DNA from: a virus
Direction: 5' to 3' (one strand)
Length of the DNA stretch: 31,681 bases
IMG/VR virus record: IMGVR_UViG_3300032285_001938
Span: 1 to 31,681 of that record
Under the pieces are notes generated by a model that made no database searches, had not been told where the DNA came from, and saw only the letters and a list, made by a program, of their open reading frames with translations. The translations under genes were made by a program, and so were the position numbers. Shown here in pieces: positions 2,808-20,933 of this stretch; the stretch's first letter is position 1; every line of letters starts with the position of its first letter.

Positions 2808-3352
2808 GATTTCAATTTAAATTGTGATAACAACTTTCTTGCCTGTTCGCTCTGAATTCCTGCATCGTTACTTTCCCCTCTGTTATTATACCTCCAAACA
2901 ACCTCTTCAACAATGGCCTGCTTTAATGATTTAGGAACTTGTAAACCTACGGAAGGGTAACCGGCCGAATAAGTTACTTTTAAATAATCGTACATTGGAC
3001 TAACAATGTAAGGATACTTACCACCTCTTACAGTGTATTGAGTCACTGTATCACCATCCGCATCAACGATGGCAGTAATTTCATCAACAGGCGCGCCAGG
3101 TAGAACAATATTACCGCACTCATTACGAAGTTCGGCTTCGATGGACTTTTCAATGATGGAAATTTCACAGAACCTTTCTACCGCTTCCCTGCAATTGCTA
3201 ATCAACATAGCAATGAAAGTATCATCATCGTTGAAGTCGTAGTCCGTAGTCGTATCAAATCTCATGTTTAACTGAAATTTGACATCGTCTATGCTAATCG
3301 GTTCTGGGCCGGTCTCGGTAAGTACGTTATATCGCGCTTCGTTGTAGTACAT
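2795..3352 (-). CDS. gp6-like head-tail connector protein
   Basis: The 185-residue protein fits the gp6/gp15-type connector: N-terminal PISIDDVKFQLNM, an acidic stretch, then IAMLISNCREAVERFCEISI, a central beta domain (LPGAPVDEITAIVDADG and YLKVTYSAGYPS) and a C-terminal helix (LKQAIVEEVVWRYNNRGES). The order 'LK..Lr......dd..l..li..Are..E......' followed by 'y.aGy' is diagnostic for the family, which forms a ring beneath the portal. It shares one base with the next gene's end. Confidence 0.88.
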   Translation of the reverse strand: MYYNEARYNVLTETGPEPISIDDVKFQLNMRFDTTTDYDFNDDDTFIAMLISNCREAVERFCEISIIEKSIEAELRNECGNIVLPGAPVDEITAIVDADGDTVTQYTVRGGKYPYIVSPMYDYLKVTYSAGYPSVGLQVPKSLKQAIVEEVVWRYNNRGESNDAGIQSEQARKLLSQFKLKSWLV

Positions 3353-9012: not shown

Positions 9013-9358
9013 TGTCTATTTCTAATGTGATACCACCGCTCAGAGTGGTGTTGTTGTTTGAGTTAATTTGTTGCAGTGTAAGTCGCTCAAATTCCTCGTC
9101 GTTGGCCATTAGTTTGTAAGCAGCAATCTGTAGGGTAGGTTGGTCGCTTTGTATCCAACGATTGCGCATATTAGACTTATATGAAACGCGATTATCCTCT
9201 AAAGCCTGTTTTATATTGTCTAATTTATCGAACCCCCAATTGTACAATGATGATCTGTCAGGCTCCACATATTGAGAAATTTCATCAAAAAAAACAAGTT
9301 TGTTCTTCTTGATAGCCTCTAAACATTTGTTCAATATCTTATCCCTGTCGTAAGCCAT
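8984..9358 (-). CDS. Terminase small subunit
   Basis: The 124-residue protein starts with a helix-turn-helix-like segment (ILNKCLEAIKKNKLVFFDEISQYVEPDRSSLYNWG) followed by helices that should form the oligomerisation core and a C-terminal tail rich in Asn and Asp. Being directly upstream of, and overlapping, the large subunit supports DNA recognition for packaging. It is the first well-supported gene of the late operon, right behind the promoter at 9363-9395. Confidence 0.85.
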   Translation of the reverse strand: MAYDRDKILNKCLEAIKKNKLVFFDEISQYVEPDRSSLYNWGFDKLDNIKQALEDNRVSYKSNMRNRWIQSDQPTLQIAAYKLMANDEEFERLTLQQINSNNNTTLSGGITLEIDNDCEPIKAV

Positions 9359-9523: not shown

Positions 9524-9824
9524 AAAGATTCAAAAGATTCACCAAAGTTTCACCAAAGATTCAGCATATTTTTTCATAGTACTTTGATTACCAATAAGTT
9601 ATGTTACAAAGTTTCAAAGATTCAAGATTTCATAGGAAAATATATAAAATTTCAAAGTTTCAAAGTTTCACCTATATATTATATATAATAATAATATAAA
9701 TAAATTAGTTCTATTATGTTTTTTGAATCTTTGAAACTTTCCTCTGAAACTCAAGCCCACACTACAAAGTAAAGATTCAGCAGGTGAATCTTTCGTGAAA
9801 CTTTTGAAACTTTGGTGAATCTTA
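9524..9824. repeat. Iteron array with AT-rich core; candidate replication origin
   Basis: Nine-base units AAAG(A/T)TTCA recur on the plus strand at 9524, 9533, 9544, 9555, 9608, 9616, 9654 and 9662 (variants at 9624 and 9646), often sharing a base with the next. After an AT-only stretch (about 9672-9707) the inverse complement TGAA(A/T)CTTT appears at 9724, 9732, 9785, 9796, 9805 and 9816 (last base varies), plus one direct copy at 9771. Some copies are extended by CC or GC. The array directly follows the primase-helicase gene and overlaps its last codons. Converging iterons round an AT-rich core are typical of initiator-bound origins; a multi-site operator is the alternative. Confidence 0.72.
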
Positions 9825-12107
9825 GTAGGTCTTTTCATAGCTACCCCTTGAAATTTGGCTGAATAGTTCTTTTTGGCGATTTATAAACGTTTTAACAGTA
9901 GCCTCCTTTATTCCGATACTTTCCCCTATCTCGATGGCTGTCTTCAATTTAAAGGCTTGTGGTAGTTTGCTATAAAGTAACTGCTGTGCAGGTAGCAATT
10001 TATCAACTGGGCTTTCAGGTGTGAGTATCTTCATGGCCTTTAGCATATTATCTAAAAAGTACTCAGTTAATCTAATGGATTTCTCCATCGCTCCTTGGGT
10101 AATCGTGCAATTTTCACGATAGTTGTAGTCCTCCATAACTTGGATAATAAGAGCAAACCTCAAACAATAGTTTTGATACTTGGCAATAATTCCCTTGATA
10201 TGATCAGATTGCGAGCTATCATATTTTTTATTTTTAGCATCGTGCCATGTTTTATATAGTTTGTTGGCTTGCTCATTCATGTAGTAAATATATTTCATGC
10301 CCTTACGCATCGCTAATAGGCCAAAAATGAAGTTTTTATATCCGTTTAGTATTTCATAAGGAATATTGATTTGCTGCCATTCTTGCTTATTCTGAGGCTG
10401 CGGATAAACAAATAGAAACCTATGGAAGAATCCGTTGTGTTCATTTTCGTTTGCTGAAAGTGTGGTAAGTACTCCAGGTTGAACACCTCCGACGATTGTA
10501 CAAAAAGGCTCATCGACTTTATCAATACCGCGCGATACCCTTTGTACAAGTAATGGCTCACCACTCCAAAGGGATAGCCACTTTTCAAGCTCATCGTTTG
10601 TATCGCTGTATTTATTCATTTTCTTAATAAAACCAATAAGCTCATCATTCAGAAGGCAACAACCATACTCATTCACTGCAAGAATCTTTGAAATCATCTC
10701 GATGGTACTGTCTCCAATAATTACCTGATAGTATGGCGGTGCTTCTGGTTCAGGTTCTGATTTATTTTTACTTGCTTTATAGTCTTGCAGTTCCTCTTTG
10801 TATCGTTCGAGTTCCAATTTATAATGCTTGTAACTTTCAGCATCATATTCCTGAAACGGATTGAATGCCTTATTTAGTGCAGGTGTTTTAGATGCCCCAG
10901 GAGGTGCAACAATGGCCATGTATAAAATAGGCTTAACGATGTATCCCTGCATTGCCTCCATCGTGCAAGTATTCCCTATGGCCGTAGAAACTGCTGCCAA
11001 AATACCACCGGCCAAATATTCATGCTGTATCACTTGTTTGCTAATAAATAATTGCAAAGCACTTGGGAAGATATCAAAAGGGAATTTTGAGCGGTCTTGT
11101 TTTGGTTGTTCTTGTTCAATCGGTTTGGTTATTTCAATATCGTTATGCTCACACAGAAATTTAATTGTTTCAATTGTAGTTATCCAATCTTGTTTTGATT
11201 TGTAATAAATGAATCTTGTGGGAGTAAGTATCCAGCTGTGATCGTCCGAACTTATACGACTGTGAAAATTTGGGAAGTCAGTAAAACTTCCACTCATAAT
11301 TAGTAGCTTTTTTACTTTACCAAAATAAACCTTTGCGGAATAATCAGCAAGTGAACCCTTGCGTAAATAGGCTGCATATTTTTTACGATTATATCTTGGG
11401 TTTTTTATAATATACAAATCGATGCTTTCAAGCAATTCATTAAATAGATCATCTGTACATGATAAATCAAATAACAGTGCAAGCTCTTCGTATTCTTTTG
11501 GATATTCAATTATAATCGAATCCCTATTTAATTCAATATCATCGTATTCATTAAAGTAAATACACGAAGCACAAAGCATATCGAACTCATCTTGAGTCAG
11601 TTCTTCGATATCTGTAAGTTCGTTATGTATTAATTCGTAACCTGGCGTTGGATAGCAAAAAGACAATAGGCCACCTGTATAGATGCTTATTACCTCTCTG
11701 TTTTCACTGCTCTTTGCAAGTGGTTTTTTATGTTCAACTTTGCTAAACTTAGAGTAAATATGATAACCTCCGTTCCTTGTTTTCTCTATACAAACTTTCC
11801 TTAGTACATCTTCGTTTGTACTTTTAACTATATTTAAGAACTGATTGAATAGTTCCTTATTTTCAGTATTCTTTAAATCAAAATCAAACATGAAATAGGG
11901 CGGCTTCATCCTTAATGCAAGGCCATTCATCTTATTCAAGTCCTGCATCCATCGGCTCACATCATTAATAGAATGATATTCTCCTTTATCTTCAATATCT
12001 GTTTTGTATTCAGGGAATTTCTCTACGTTCTTTTTATTTATATCCCAATCAACAGGCACAGGGTAAAGCCCCATTTCAAAAAGTTCTGATAGTACTTTGA
12101 TGTCCAT
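9822..12107 (-). CDS. Primase-polymerase/helicase replication protein (DUF3987-type)
   Basis: This 761-residue protein has an N-terminal prim-pol-like domain with the metal-binding MFDFDL motif (73-78) and KTRNGGYHIYSK (109-120). A central DUF3987-type helicase domain begins near FPSALQLFISKQVIQHEYLAGG (347-368) and has Walker A APPGASKT (401-408) and an LLNDEL Walker B-like motif. The C terminus (AIEIGESIGIKEATVKTFINRQKELF) looks like a winged helix-turn-helix. It probably primes and unwinds phage DNA and may bind the adjacent iterons. It is the last gene of the early operon and follows a structured leader. No phage DNA polymerase is visible, so elongation likely uses the host enzyme. Confidence 0.88.
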   Translation of the reverse strand: MDIKVLSELFEMGLYPVPVDWDINKKNVEKFPEYKTDIEDKGEYHSINDVSRWMQDLNKMNGLALRMKPPYFMFDFDLKNTENKELFNQFLNIVKSTNEDVLRKVCIEKTRNGGYHIYSKFSKVEHKKPLAKSSENREVISIYTGGLLSFCYPTPGYELIHNELTDIEELTQDEFDMLCASCIYFNEYDDIELNRDSIIIEYPKEYEELALLFDLSCTDDLFNELLESIDLYIIKNPRYNRKKYAAYLRKGSLADYSAKVYFGKVKKLLIMSGSFTDFPNFHSRISSDDHSWILTPTRFIYYKSKQDWITTIETIKFLCEHNDIEITKPIEQEQPKQDRSKFPFDIFPSALQLFISKQVIQHEYLAGGILAAVSTAIGNTCTMEAMQGYIVKPILYMAIVAPPGASKTPALNKAFNPFQEYDAESYKHYKLELERYKEELQDYKASKNKSEPEPEAPPYYQVIIGDSTIEMISKILAVNEYGCCLLNDELIGFIKKMNKYSDTNDELEKWLSLWSGEPLLVQRVSRGIDKVDEPFCTIVGGVQPGVLTTLSANENEHNGFFHRFLFVYPQPQNKQEWQQINIPYEILNGYKNFIFGLLAMRKGMKYIYYMNEQANKLYKTWHDAKNKKYDSSQSDHIKGIIAKYQNYCLRFALIIQVMEDYNYRENCTITQGAMEKSIRLTEYFLDNMLKAMKILTPESPVDKLLPAQQLLYSKLPQAFKLKTAIEIGESIGIKEATVKTFINRQKELFSQISRGSYEKTY

Positions 12108-12118
12108 TGTAATTAATT

Positions 12119-12224
12119 AAAAATCCCGAAGGTTGCCTCTGGTGGAATCGGATGCGCTTGCACCCTCAGAAGCCCCCTCCGGGAATTTCAATAAGTTTTA
12201 TTTATCGGGATTCCACCTCCGACA
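12119..12224 (-). promoter_or_regulatory. Structured leader A: kissing-loop/terminator element before the primase-helicase
   Basis: Minus strand, 5' to 3'. Hairpin 1 has a 6-bp stem (12224-12219 with 12208-12203) and loop AGGTGGAATC. Hairpin 2, AATAA-AAC-TTATT (12202-12190), abuts it. Hairpin 3 (12184-12124) has a 9-bp basal stem (TCCCGGAGG with CCTTCGGGA), an inner stem CTTCTG/CAGAGG and an apical GGGTGC-AAGC-GCATCC, then five T. GGTGGAATC in loop 1 is a perfect 9-nt complement of GATTCCACC (12149-12141) in hairpin 3. The start codon is 12 nt beyond the T-run. This suggests attenuation or translational gating. I do not recognise it as a known riboswitch. Confidence 0.7.
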
Positions 12225-12236
12225 GGGCAAAGTTAA

Positions 12237-14387
12237 TTAAAACAAGGTAGTTTGTTTTTTAGTTTCAACTATTGCTGCAAGATTCTTTTTTGCTTGGTCA
12301 AAATAAGATTCTTTAAGTTCAAATCCAATTCCTTTTCGGTTCATCTTTACAGCTTGAAATACCTCTGATCCAATACCCATAAATGGAGTGAGTACCGTGT
12401 CATTTTCGTTACTATACAAATGTATTGCTTTTTCAATTGTTGGAAGTTGCAAAGGACAAATATGCTTTTCATCGTTTTCATCCCTGCCATTCCTATATCC
12501 TTGCAAAGTATCACCGTAATCAATATCCATCCAAACAGGGGAAGCATATTTTTGCCATGTGTCTACATTTATTGTGCATTTCACTGGATCAGTTCTATCG
12601 CCATCTTTTCTAAATATTAATAGGTAGTCCGGTATTCCCACTCTGGACATCGTGCTGTCTTTTTTTACTTGTTTATGTAAAAGCCCAAGTGCTTTTGTTC
12701 TTTGCATTTCTACAACCGGATCTTTCCAAATTGTAACCCTTGAATGATAAATAAAACCAGCACTTTCGAATGCTTTTAAAATTAACCCACTAAAATCACG
12801 CAATCCAATAAAACCTTCTTTTCCTTTTTGTATGGGTAAGTCCATGCAATGTACTGCAACATTTCGGCCTTGTTTTATAACTCTGTACAATTCTTTAATA
12901 AGGAAATTAAATTGAGTTAGGAATTCATTGTAATCTTTGCTGTTACCCATATCTTCCAAATGTGATGAATAAGTATAAAGATCAGCGAAAGGAGGTGAAA
13001 AAATAGAGAAGCCAACAGTTTCATCTTGAACATCTTTAATCAACTGGATACAATCACCACGCTTTATATTGTAATATTCATTATCGACTTCATCAGTATT
13101 GTTAGTTGCTGATTTCAAAATAGTATTATTTAAATTCTGATTTACAGCTTTGCTCATTTCATCTTGCATAAGTTCAAATTGTTTTTGTTTGTTATCTATG
13201 CTTTGTTTTACGTTGGACATGGTATCGGTAGTAATCAAATAAATATTAACAGCTTGCTTTTGTCCAAATCTGTATGACCTTCTTATGGCCTGGTACAATC
13301 CCTCGAAACTGAAGTCTAAACTTGCAAATATTTGATTATTGCAATTTTGATAGTTAAGGCCAAATGAAGCTATTTTAGTTTTAGTAATCAATACCCTAAA
13401 TTGATTATTTGCGAATCCAAGCAGCATCTTTTCTTTGTATTCATTACTATCTGATCCTTTTACTTCAATTGCCTCAGGGATTAGTTTTTTTAATAACTCA
13501 CCTTCTTCATTTTGCTTTATCCATATAATAAAGTTATCGGTTGAGTTATTTACAATTTTCGCAACTTCATCGAGTCGCTCAATTTTAGTAAATCGAAGCT
13601 CTTGATTAAAGTTAGTCGCTGAAATTATAGCATCGTTGAATAAGAGGCCGTTATCTCGTTTTTTGGTTATTATTTGTTTTTCAATAAGATTCAATGATGG
13701 CAAATCGTAATCTTGCATCTGAAATCCAATATCGTTAGGCTTATTTAACATGATTGACCAGGTGCCAACAAATTGATAAAATAATTTTACAGCATGTCCT
13801 TTTAATCTCCACTTTGAGGTCTCACCGCCATCATGGACAAAATACATTGCAAGCATTTCATTGCGACCCATGACGTCTAAGAACTCGGCATGATTGCCAA
13901 GCTCCATAGGATCGTTAGGGGATGGAGTGGCTGTACAAGCTAATTTGTAAGGAGTCAATTTAAATAAGTCTATTATCTTCTTTTTAGTCTCACCTTCAAA
14001 ATTTTTCAATATAGAAGATTCATCCAAAACAATCCCTGAGTACTTTTGGCTTTCTATGTTATCTAACTGCTCATAATTGTTTATTTCTATGCCATCAATT
14101 GGAATCTTAAATTTAATAGCCTCGTTAATTGTTTGTCCTTTTACTGCTAAAGGTGCTAAAATCAAAATAGTCTTATTTGTATGCTTGTAAACTTGATGCG
14201 CCCATTCAAGTTGCATCAAAGTTTTCCCAAGTCCGCAATCAGCAAATATTGCATACTTTCCAGCCTTTAAGGCTCTTTTTACAATAAACTTTTGAAATTC
14301 AAATAAGTTAGGATTCAACTCACCGACATCGAATCCTGAATAAACATGAGCTTTCCGCTTACTTTCCAAAAATTGATTATAGTCCAT
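12237..14387 (-). CDS. SNF2/DEAD-type helicase fused to a DNA methyltransferase
   Basis: The chosen start MDYNQFLESK gives 716 residues; upstream codons would run through the leader's terminator hairpin. Residues 30-400 are a superfamily 2 helicase: CGLGKT (51-56), DESS (122-125), TATPSPND (152-159) and a motif VI-like QAIRRSYRFGQKQ (366-378). Residues 438-716 are a beta-type amino-methyltransferase with motif IV FSPPF (463-467) and, later in the chain, motif I TPFMGIGSE (667-675), the order found in N6-adenine or N4-cytosine enzymes. It may remodel and methylate phage DNA, protecting it from restriction or marking it for replication. The sequence specificity cannot be told. Confidence 0.88.
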   Translation of the reverse strand: MDYNQFLESKRKAHVYSGFDVGELNPNLFEFQKFIVKRALKAGKYAIFADCGLGKTLMQLEWAHQVYKHTNKTILILAPLAVKGQTINEAIKFKIPIDGIEINNYEQLDNIESQKYSGIVLDESSILKNFEGETKKKIIDLFKLTPYKLACTATPSPNDPMELGNHAEFLDVMGRNEMLAMYFVHDGGETSKWRLKGHAVKLFYQFVGTWSIMLNKPNDIGFQMQDYDLPSLNLIEKQIITKKRDNGLLFNDAIISATNFNQELRFTKIERLDEVAKIVNNSTDNFIIWIKQNEEGELLKKLIPEAIEVKGSDSNEYKEKMLLGFANNQFRVLITKTKIASFGLNYQNCNNQIFASLDFSFEGLYQAIRRSYRFGQKQAVNIYLITTDTMSNVKQSIDNKQKQFELMQDEMSKAVNQNLNNTILKSATNNTDEVDNEYYNIKRGDCIQLIKDVQDETVGFSIFSPPFADLYTYSSHLEDMGNSKDYNEFLTQFNFLIKELYRVIKQGRNVAVHCMDLPIQKGKEGFIGLRDFSGLILKAFESAGFIYHSRVTIWKDPVVEMQRTKALGLLHKQVKKDSTMSRVGIPDYLLIFRKDGDRTDPVKCTINVDTWQKYASPVWMDIDYGDTLQGYRNGRDENDEKHICPLQLPTIEKAIHLYSNENDTVLTPFMGIGSEVFQAVKMNRKGIGFELKESYFDQAKKNLAAIVETKKQTTLF

Positions 14388-14392
14388 AAAAT

Positions 14393-14479
14393 AAAAAATC
14401 CCCACCAGATGCGAGCTGATGGGGTTATTGCATGATGAATGCAAATAAAGTGCAACGGCTCGCATTCGTTGCTCTTTAT
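14393..14479 (-). promoter_or_regulatory. Structured leader B: kissing-loop/terminator element before the helicase-methyltransferase
   Basis: Minus strand. Hairpin 1 (14479-14445) has stem ATAAAG-A-GCAACG / CGTTGC-A-CTTTAT, twelve pairs with one A-A mismatch, and loop AATGCGAGC. Hairpin 2, TTGCAT-TCATC-ATGCAA (14444-14428), abuts it. After 3 nt, hairpin 3 (14424-14400) has 9-bp stem CCCCATCAG/CTGGTGGGG with one T-G pair and loop CTCGCAT, then six T (14398-14393). Loop 3 is the exact complement of ATGCGAG in loop 1 (8 nt counting the adjoining G-C). The start codon lies 5 nt after the T-run. The architecture matches leader A although the stem sequences differ. Confidence 0.75.
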
Positions 14480-14483
14480 CGTT

Positions 14484-14942
14484 TTACAAATTTACAACTT
14501 TATCATAAATCTCAAAGAAATCTTCAGGACTGACACAGAACTCATAAATACCGCCAGCTTTGCGTTCCCTTTGCTGCTCGAGTAACTGATGTTCGGATGG
14601 CCGGTCTTTACCTATTTTGATTTCAAGCATAACACTTCTGCCATTGATTGTTGCGCTAATATCCGCAGTTCCTTTCCTCGTAGTGCTTCGCATCCATTTC
14701 TTAGTACTAAGCACAGCACCTGATGCTGTCTTTTCCACGCTATCTACTAACCGGCCGCTTACATTAATCCTTGTCGCCCTGAATCCTTGCCATGTCAAAT
14801 AATTAATGATGAAAATAGTCAGTCCGTTTGCTTTCGCCACTACAGGCATCTTAGCAGGTGTGTAATGACCGTTTCTGTAAGCATTGGGATATTGCTCCTT
14901 AAAGTAGTTTTCATGCGCCTGTAGGTAGCGTTCTTTTGTCAT
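14484..14942 (-). CDS. VRR-NUC family nuclease
   Basis: With the ATG at 14942 (MTKERYLQAHENYF) the protein has about 152 residues. The C-terminal half has the VRR-NUC pattern: RKGTADISATINGRSVMLEIKIGKDRPSEHQLLEQQRERKAGG, in shorter form G-T-x-D-I, then E-I-K as the catalytic acid and lysine, and a Q-rich helix. The ending GGIYEFCVSPEDFFE is also typical. Such PD-(D/E)XK enzymes in phages act as Holliday junction or branched-DNA nucleases in replication and recombination. It overlaps the upstream gene by 32 nt and precedes leader B. Confidence 0.85.
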   Translation of the reverse strand: MTKERYLQAHENYFKEQYPNAYRNGHYTPAKMPVVAKANGLTIFIINYLTWQGFRATRINVSGRLVDSVEKTASGAVLSTKKWMRSTTRKGTADISATINGRSVMLEIKIGKDRPSEHQLLEQQRERKAGGIYEFCVSPEDFFEIYDKVVNL

Positions 14943-20902: not shown

Positions 20903-20933
20903 TAAAAAACCCCCGAGATGGAAATCCCAGGGG
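20903..20933 (-). terminator. Rho-independent terminator ending the late operon
   Basis: Minus strand stem CCCCTGGGAT / ATCTCGGGGG (20933-20910), ten pairs including two G-T, loop TTCC, followed by six T (20909-20904). It lies after the endolysin gene and before the early promoter, separating late from early transcription. The 98 bp between endolysin and terminator hold no gene. Confidence 0.88.

Follow-up and report, generated by a model that had tools for sequence, protein, structure and literature searches.

Leaders with complementary hairpin loops precede early genes of Bacteroidetes phages and may act as conditional terminators

What is the structured stretch that separates a nuclease-like gene from a helicase–methylase gene in a viral genome? 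The record concerned (31,681 bases, analyzed whole and hereafter called the window) encodes on its minus strand a 716-aa fusion of a SNF2-type helicase with an N6/N4 DNA methylase (12237–14387; Pfam PF00271/PF00176 and PF01555; PHROG 16 and 67). The gap in front of this gene, here termed leader B, had been read as three hairpins with a perfect loop–loop complement. We read leader B as belonging to a class of cis-folding RNAs whose existence we regard as close to certain; most likely, with a probability of roughly 0.55, the class serves early genes as a conditional terminator (attenuator).

The three hairpins and the loop–loop match are present on the minus strand at 14480–14400. Hairpin 1 (14444–14480), i.e., GATAAAG-A-GCAACG[AATGCGAGC]CGTTGC-A-CTTTATT with the loop AATGCGAGC at 14466–14458, has 13 pairs rather than the 12 first proposed once the terminal G-U is counted, and it carries the single A·A mismatch of that proposal. 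Hairpin 2 (14428–14444; TTGCAT[TCATC]ATGCAA, 6 bp) lies in the linker. Hairpin 3 (14400–14424) reads CCCCATCAG[CTCGCAT]CTGGTGGGG with 9 bp, followed by ATTTTTTATTTT, and by sequence it has the features of an intrinsic terminator: 9 bp, 6 G-C pairs, and then AUUUUUU. The U-run AUUUUUUAUUUU (14388–14399) reaches the ATG at 14387–14385, so that the last hairpin is followed at once by the U-run and then the start codon (ATTTTTTATTTTATG). The hairpin 1 loop AUGCGAG (14465–14459) is the exact complement of the hairpin 3 loop (14415–14409) over 7 nt, as claimed for CTCGCAT in the sequence-only reading, and over 8 nt with the closing C/G, i.e., strand AUGCGAGC at 14458–14465 and strand GCUCGCAU at 14409–14416. 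RNAfold returned the same three hairpins with a folding energy of −32 kcal/mol (z = −3.0), a value that 0 of 200 shuffled sequences reached. The match is also beyond chance: in cross-pairings of unrelated leaders, matches of at least 7 nt occurred in about 0.5% of pairs and of at least 8 nt in about 0.08%.

A promoter stands just upstream. The −7 box TAAATTTG (14487–14494, minus strand) fits the Bacteroidetes primary sigma consensus TAHHTTTG and is separated by 18 nt from a −33 element TTG at 14515–14513 (TTG-N18-TAAATTTG, 14515–14487). It sits 6 nt before hairpin 1 and overlaps the 3′ end of the nuclease-like gene (stop 14484–14486), which weakly matches a PHROG endonuclease/Holliday-junction resolvase. 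The minus strand of the entire window contains 16 exact TAHHTTTG boxes, two of which lie 3–6 nt ahead of leaders B and A (the latter described below). The same consensus is reported for Flavobacterium, with the start site 4–5 nt after the box (PMC6847099); applied here, this distance would put the transcription start at 14481–14482, immediately 5′ of hairpin 1, and therefore the RNA 5′ end at the foot of that hairpin. The layout of leader B thus runs from promoter through hairpin 1, linker, terminator-like hairpin, and U-run to AUG, and the order of promoter, structure, terminator-like hairpin, and gene is that of an attenuator.

The plainest alternative is that hairpin 3 is the ordinary terminator of the upstream gene and that the loop match arose by chance. 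Compact phage genomes do put terminators beside start codons, and the window has one such ordinary strong terminator at 20933–20910 (CCCCTGGGATTTCCATCTCGGGGG TTTTTT), which is followed by two tandem promoter boxes (20879 and 20851). The promoters there come after the hairpin, whereas in leaders A and B they come before the hairpins. Given also the statistics and covariation presented below, we assign this alternative next to no weight for leader B, and for the class it is already refuted.

The window holds a second leader of the same layout. Leader A (12224–12119, minus strand) follows a promoter box TAACTTTG (12228–12235) and comprises a hairpin 1 (12203–12224) with the loop AGGTGGAATC (12218–12209), a kissing partner GATTCCACC (12141–12149), and a U-run (12119–12123), and it precedes the window's gene for a primase/helicase-type protein (9822–12107; DUF3987, PF13148; ATG at 12107). 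The two leaders had been grouped, and this holds for their shared order of elements and for the kissing. Homology between them was, however, considered and rejected as unsupported by sequence, and the kissing partner is a 3′ bulge of the terminator-like hairpin (about 12184–12124) in leader A but the apical loop in leader B. A copy of leader A with 82% identity stands before another gene in a related contig, L083, whose primase is 97% identical in protein sequence, yet has its leader swapped for an unrelated leader that is built alike (GUAGCAG/CUGCUAC). The order in that contig (2227–3310) is the leader A copy with a small gene, an HNH gene, and then the new leader with the primase; gene-plus-leader units look exchangeable.

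Beyond the window, about ten phage lineages have the same layout, with different yet matching loops, in front of their orthologs of the helicase gene, e.g., with CUGCCA in L005, GUGCAG in L042, GUAGUAG in L076, and, as read by eye, GUGGUGA in L052; many other relatives of the helicase gene are without such a leader. It also occurs before replication-initiator and HNH/GIY-YIG genes. We used a detector that seeks a hairpin 1 and a terminator-like hairpin with matching loop on both strands, with dinucleotide shuffling as the control. Across 80 loci, kissing with an exact promoter was detected 15 times against 1 in shuffles; in an enlarged set, kissing with a start codon within 40 nt was detected 40 times against 3, falling to 29 against 0 when a promoter with at most one mismatch was also required. 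Looser settings gave 44 against 3. Detector thresholds were changed between these three runs, the shuffles were run once or a few times, and related loci inflate all of these counts, although identical hairpins were counted once. Because the detector by design favors matching loops, a second selection ignored the match and took leaders by promoter, first helix, and last helix near a start codon. Of those with a U-tail, 16 of 39 showed a match of at least 6 nt, compared with 2.4% of cross-pairings, several of the 16 being homologous members of subfamily C with differing loops; without a U-tail, the figure was 12 of 259, with about 6 expected by chance. The genes behind the leaders encode helicases, primases, DnaD-like and O-like initiators, DUF1376/DUF6291 proteins, and HNH and GIY-YIG proteins, a spectrum biased to the early region because loci were chosen by the helicase gene. 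The complementary pairs were also considered as DNA operators, a reading that was rejected because a single genome can have different pairs and because the pairs are located in the loops of hairpins.

Compensatory change also speaks for the kiss. Homologues in which the loops mutate without compensation had been named as the observation that would speak against the kiss; the opposite was found in 16 sequences of three subfamilies. Covariation of the kissing helix occurred in subfamilies A, C, and E, that of leader B not being among them. In subfamily C (six leaders with a similar frame before different genes), 7 of 7 kissing pairs are formed in all rows, 5 of the 7 have changed on both sides, one-sided changes number 0, and 100% of cells are paired. 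The leader A type (leader A, L083, L094, L139, and L066) has changed on both sides in 4 of 8 kissing pairs, again with 100% of cells paired, and the type found in cultured phages (morran, filifjonk, mumin, FCV-11, and FCOV-S2) in 5 of 8, with 97.5% of cells paired. Among the 16 sequences, a single kissing cell is unpaired (the eighth pair of FCOV-S2), and in no case did one side alone change with the pair retained. A fourth set (L011, L015, L020, L040, L120, and L127) has two long-range helices, i.e., a GCGG/CCGC-like one and a 7-nt kiss, as judged by eye and uncounted. This covariation in relatives shows that the two loops do pair as a helix in the RNA, and pairing that is kept in successive relatives while the letters change points to an undescribed kind of gene-control RNA. 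The kissing complex suggested for leader B is thus strongly supported as a class feature, by compensatory changes in three subfamilies, repeated independent occurrence, and presence in cultured phages. Only one further copy of leader B was found and it is identical over the stretch compared; its own loops therefore show no covariation, and the case for its kiss is made through class membership. A covariance model built from cultured-phage members, when run on the window, recovered leader B with E = 0.02, a score that is weak alone.

The members share a topology. The loop of hairpin 1 is complementary to an unpaired stretch of the second hairpin over 6–9 nt, and the kissing strands often read GUNNNAG, an impression gained by eye. 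In the promoter-selected set, linkers measured 12–50 nt in 34 of 44 hits (peak 16, with seven at exactly 16), the other 10 having been set aside after inspection as probable background and the lower bound being partly chosen; one of those 10, L031, is a true member in which the wrong hairpin was read. Such lengths are expected if one molecule must bridge both hairpins. Members with a long hairpin 1 (leader B, L005, L007, and L076) have a small extra hairpin in the linker that is absent from many others. In the leaders of FCL-2, L079, L118, and L133, GAGUA and GAAA lie opposite each other between an outer and an inner helix, which is the sarcin-ricin pattern; the second leader of FCV-11 has UAGUA/GAAA. 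The U-run follows the stem directly in most members, even where the start codon is farther off. In subfamily C it lies 4–5 nt off the stem (GGGGUUAAUCUUUUUAUG) and in subfamily D it is weak. From the end of the hairpin to the start codon, catalogued leaders span 4–24 nt.

Leaders of this kind occur in cultured Flavobacterium phages, i.e., FCV-1/FCV-11, FCL-2, morran, and mumin, and are therefore directly testable. In FCV-11, a leader at 35874 precedes a gene of 69 aa, and a second at about 40364 (GUAGUGC/GCACUAC; found with a model and read by eye) precedes an HNH endonuclease gene. FCL-2 has one, with CAUCCAC/GUGGAUG, before a replication-initiator-like gene. These two phages share the promoter region of one site, whereas the leader and the gene behind it differ. 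Lillamyvirus and Muminvirus phages have one leader each at the site examined, and in Laban6-1 no element with a promoter was found. Six phage records from Cellulophaga and three from Tenacibaculum likewise match the region of morran9-1; a shorter, leader-only query gave no Cellulophaga or Tenacibaculum matches, so the shared part is probably neighboring sequence.

Searches for known RNAs yielded neither a matching family nor a description. The sequence-only reading knew of no riboswitch of this form, and Rfam 15 (4227 families) contains no matching family: at gathering thresholds there were 0 matches in the window, at permissive thresholds the best sub-threshold hits to leader B had E = 0.09–0.16, far below the cut-off, and ten further leader loci matched nothing but a tRNA. 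Little beyond shape and complementarity is conserved, and sequence-based RNA searches would miss the class for this reason. Our model of subfamily C (R1) found its own kind and weakly matched the leader of L005, with no match in five Bacteroidota genomes. The cultured-type model (R2) gave two weak matches in 296 Bacteroidota genomes (L206 and L207); L207 was rejected as a member, being an ordinary terminator with no hit in the kissing scan. When leaders of subfamily C or D were compared with phage records by BLAST, no useful match emerged, and our search of the literature on kissing leaders in phages found no description.

Several known systems resemble parts of the design. In ColE1, RNAI and RNAII pair through fully paired kissing loops of 6–7 nt, and the Rop protein reads their shape rather than their sequence; these are, however, two molecules that control a plasmid primer. 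The guanidine-II riboswitch has two short hairpins with interacting loops in a 5′ leader, but it has conserved ACGR loops and a ligand, whereas the loops here vary fully and no Rfam match was obtained. The c4 antisense RNA and P4-type immunity RNAs (RF01695) are phage RNAs that combine short loop complementarity with premature termination. Their layout differs, the RF01695 model matched neither the window nor leader B, and the ten leader loci gave no Rfam match to them (c4 RNA is listed in PMC2864571). Attenuators of the pT181 type share the 5′ leader with a sensing hairpin and a terminator before a replication gene, as well as kissing hairpins (PMC4878617). In those attenuators the kiss is made with an antisense RNA, and the antiterminator is a 5′ segment that pairs with the terminator stem; in the leaders one RNA contains both partner loops, and a search for an antiterminator found none. 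HMP_4078 is a candidate structured RNA of gut Bacteroidetes phages, a palindrome of 109 bp that lies close to D5-type primase and integrase domains and is described only as not predicted to be a terminator (PMC8040213). Judged by this description, HMP_4078 may be a member of the leader class or a different RNA.

How might such a leader work? As a conditional terminator, its loops would pair within one molecule to give a compact pseudoknotted domain that folds as the RNA leaves RNA polymerase. The second hairpin and U-run would act as the terminator, so that the default product would be a terminated RNA of roughly 80–110 nt with little downstream message, and the early gene would be turned on when the phage permits polymerase read-through. 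Terminators before early genes are frequent in phages (PMC9378689), and a kissing helix made of loops rather than stems is compatible with a terminator. A classical antiterminator switch was rejected: in 30 leaders, no segment pairing with the terminator arms was found, the mean longest match being 4.6 for the 5′ arm (4.9 shuffled) and 5.7 for the 3′ arm (5.6 shuffled). Any switch should therefore act via the kiss, through its timely formation or its reading by a factor. Read-through might be triggered by a factor that recognizes the kissing shape, or by an altered polymerase or its speed, which would decide whether the kiss forms ahead of the terminator stem. The fold might also block a ribosome-binding region or respond to a ligand or to the zinc-ribbon protein, as first suggested; the free variation of the loop sequences argues against a conserved ligand pocket of loop bases.

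Subfamilies C and D, with their distant or weak U-runs, would be poor intrinsic terminators and may have a translational or stabilizing role. On such a post-transcriptional account, the pseudoknotted 5′ domain would block 5′-dependent decay and/or tune translation by keeping the start codon beside a U-rich stretch and a hairpin that is stable. A stem is predicted at the very 5′ end of the RNA, hairpins end 4–24 nt from the start codon in catalogued leaders, and in subfamilies C and D the U-rich stretch lies beside the start codon and not the stem. In Flavobacterium, initiation tends to be poor where the start codon has structure nearby or a U at −3 (PMC6847099), so the leader context would be repressive unless opened. 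In Lillamyvirus and Muminvirus phages, however, the U-run is at the stem and the annotated start some 20–60 nt further on, and the strong tie between U-tails and kissing reported above counts against the account as well. We consider it unlikely.

A different proposal is that the leader, once terminated, works as a small RNA in trans on other leader copies, for gene-dosage control or superinfection immunity, as do c4/P4-type or plasmid copy-number RNAs. This would explain why loops diversify among close relatives. In its favor, kissing sequences differ within a genome (leader A GGUGGAAUC and leader B AUGCGAGC; FCV-11 GUAGAGAG and GUAGUGC); in subfamily C they diverge faster than the frame, and some genes behind the leaders encode replication initiators or primases. 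Loop diversity is equally well explained by compensated drift in cis, however, and with both partners in the same RNA, cis pairing should win. Linkers below 12 nt are also few in the promoter-selected set, though action in trans would not require length. On balance, a trans-acting role seems improbable.

A leader might also bind the transcribing polymerase and make it ignore terminators, including the adjacent one, as the put RNA of phage HK022 does. Both are short two-hairpin RNAs directly behind an early phage promoter, early genes are preceded by terminators in both cases, and put needs no protein. But put, which binds polymerase, is conserved in sequence and contains a triplex stem (PMC9378689); its descriptions mention no kissing loops, and it does not form part of a terminator. 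The leaders are free in sequence, their loops kiss, and the kissing partner is the terminator-like hairpin itself, at the start codon. A put-like function is accordingly very unlikely.

The conditional-terminator reading can be extended, tentatively and at slightly less than even odds, to a large class conserved in topology and free in sequence: a cis kissing-loop pseudoknot built into a terminator, with diversifying loops and in some cases a sarcin-ricin-type element, that controls early replication and homing-type genes across Bacteroidetes phages through a switch that is neither an antiterminator nor a ligand aptamer. If true, it would be a widespread early-gene regulator in phages of a major bacterial phylum, where phage gene control is little known. 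For RNA design, the class would also be a useful source of kissing pairs that occur naturally inside terminators and are distinct from one another.

Some individual loci deserve mention. In L085, a leader stands behind the helicase gene (2933–3040; model R2, E = 0.0003), with the hairpin 1 loop UGAAGUC, its partner GACUUCA, a U-run, and ATG. Contig L113 has two leaders (7897 and 10201), each with an extra hairpin between promoter box and kissing hairpin. A leader of the same layout precedes a 61-aa gene in a bacterial genome contig of Dysgonomonas sp. 521 (L144, 786), which is presumably a prophage. Finally, an AT-rich gap in the window (9524–9823), before the gene at 9358–8984, contains clusters of the short repeats AAAGATTCACC and AAAGTTTC / TTTGAAAC; these are iteron-like, and the gap could be a replication origin.
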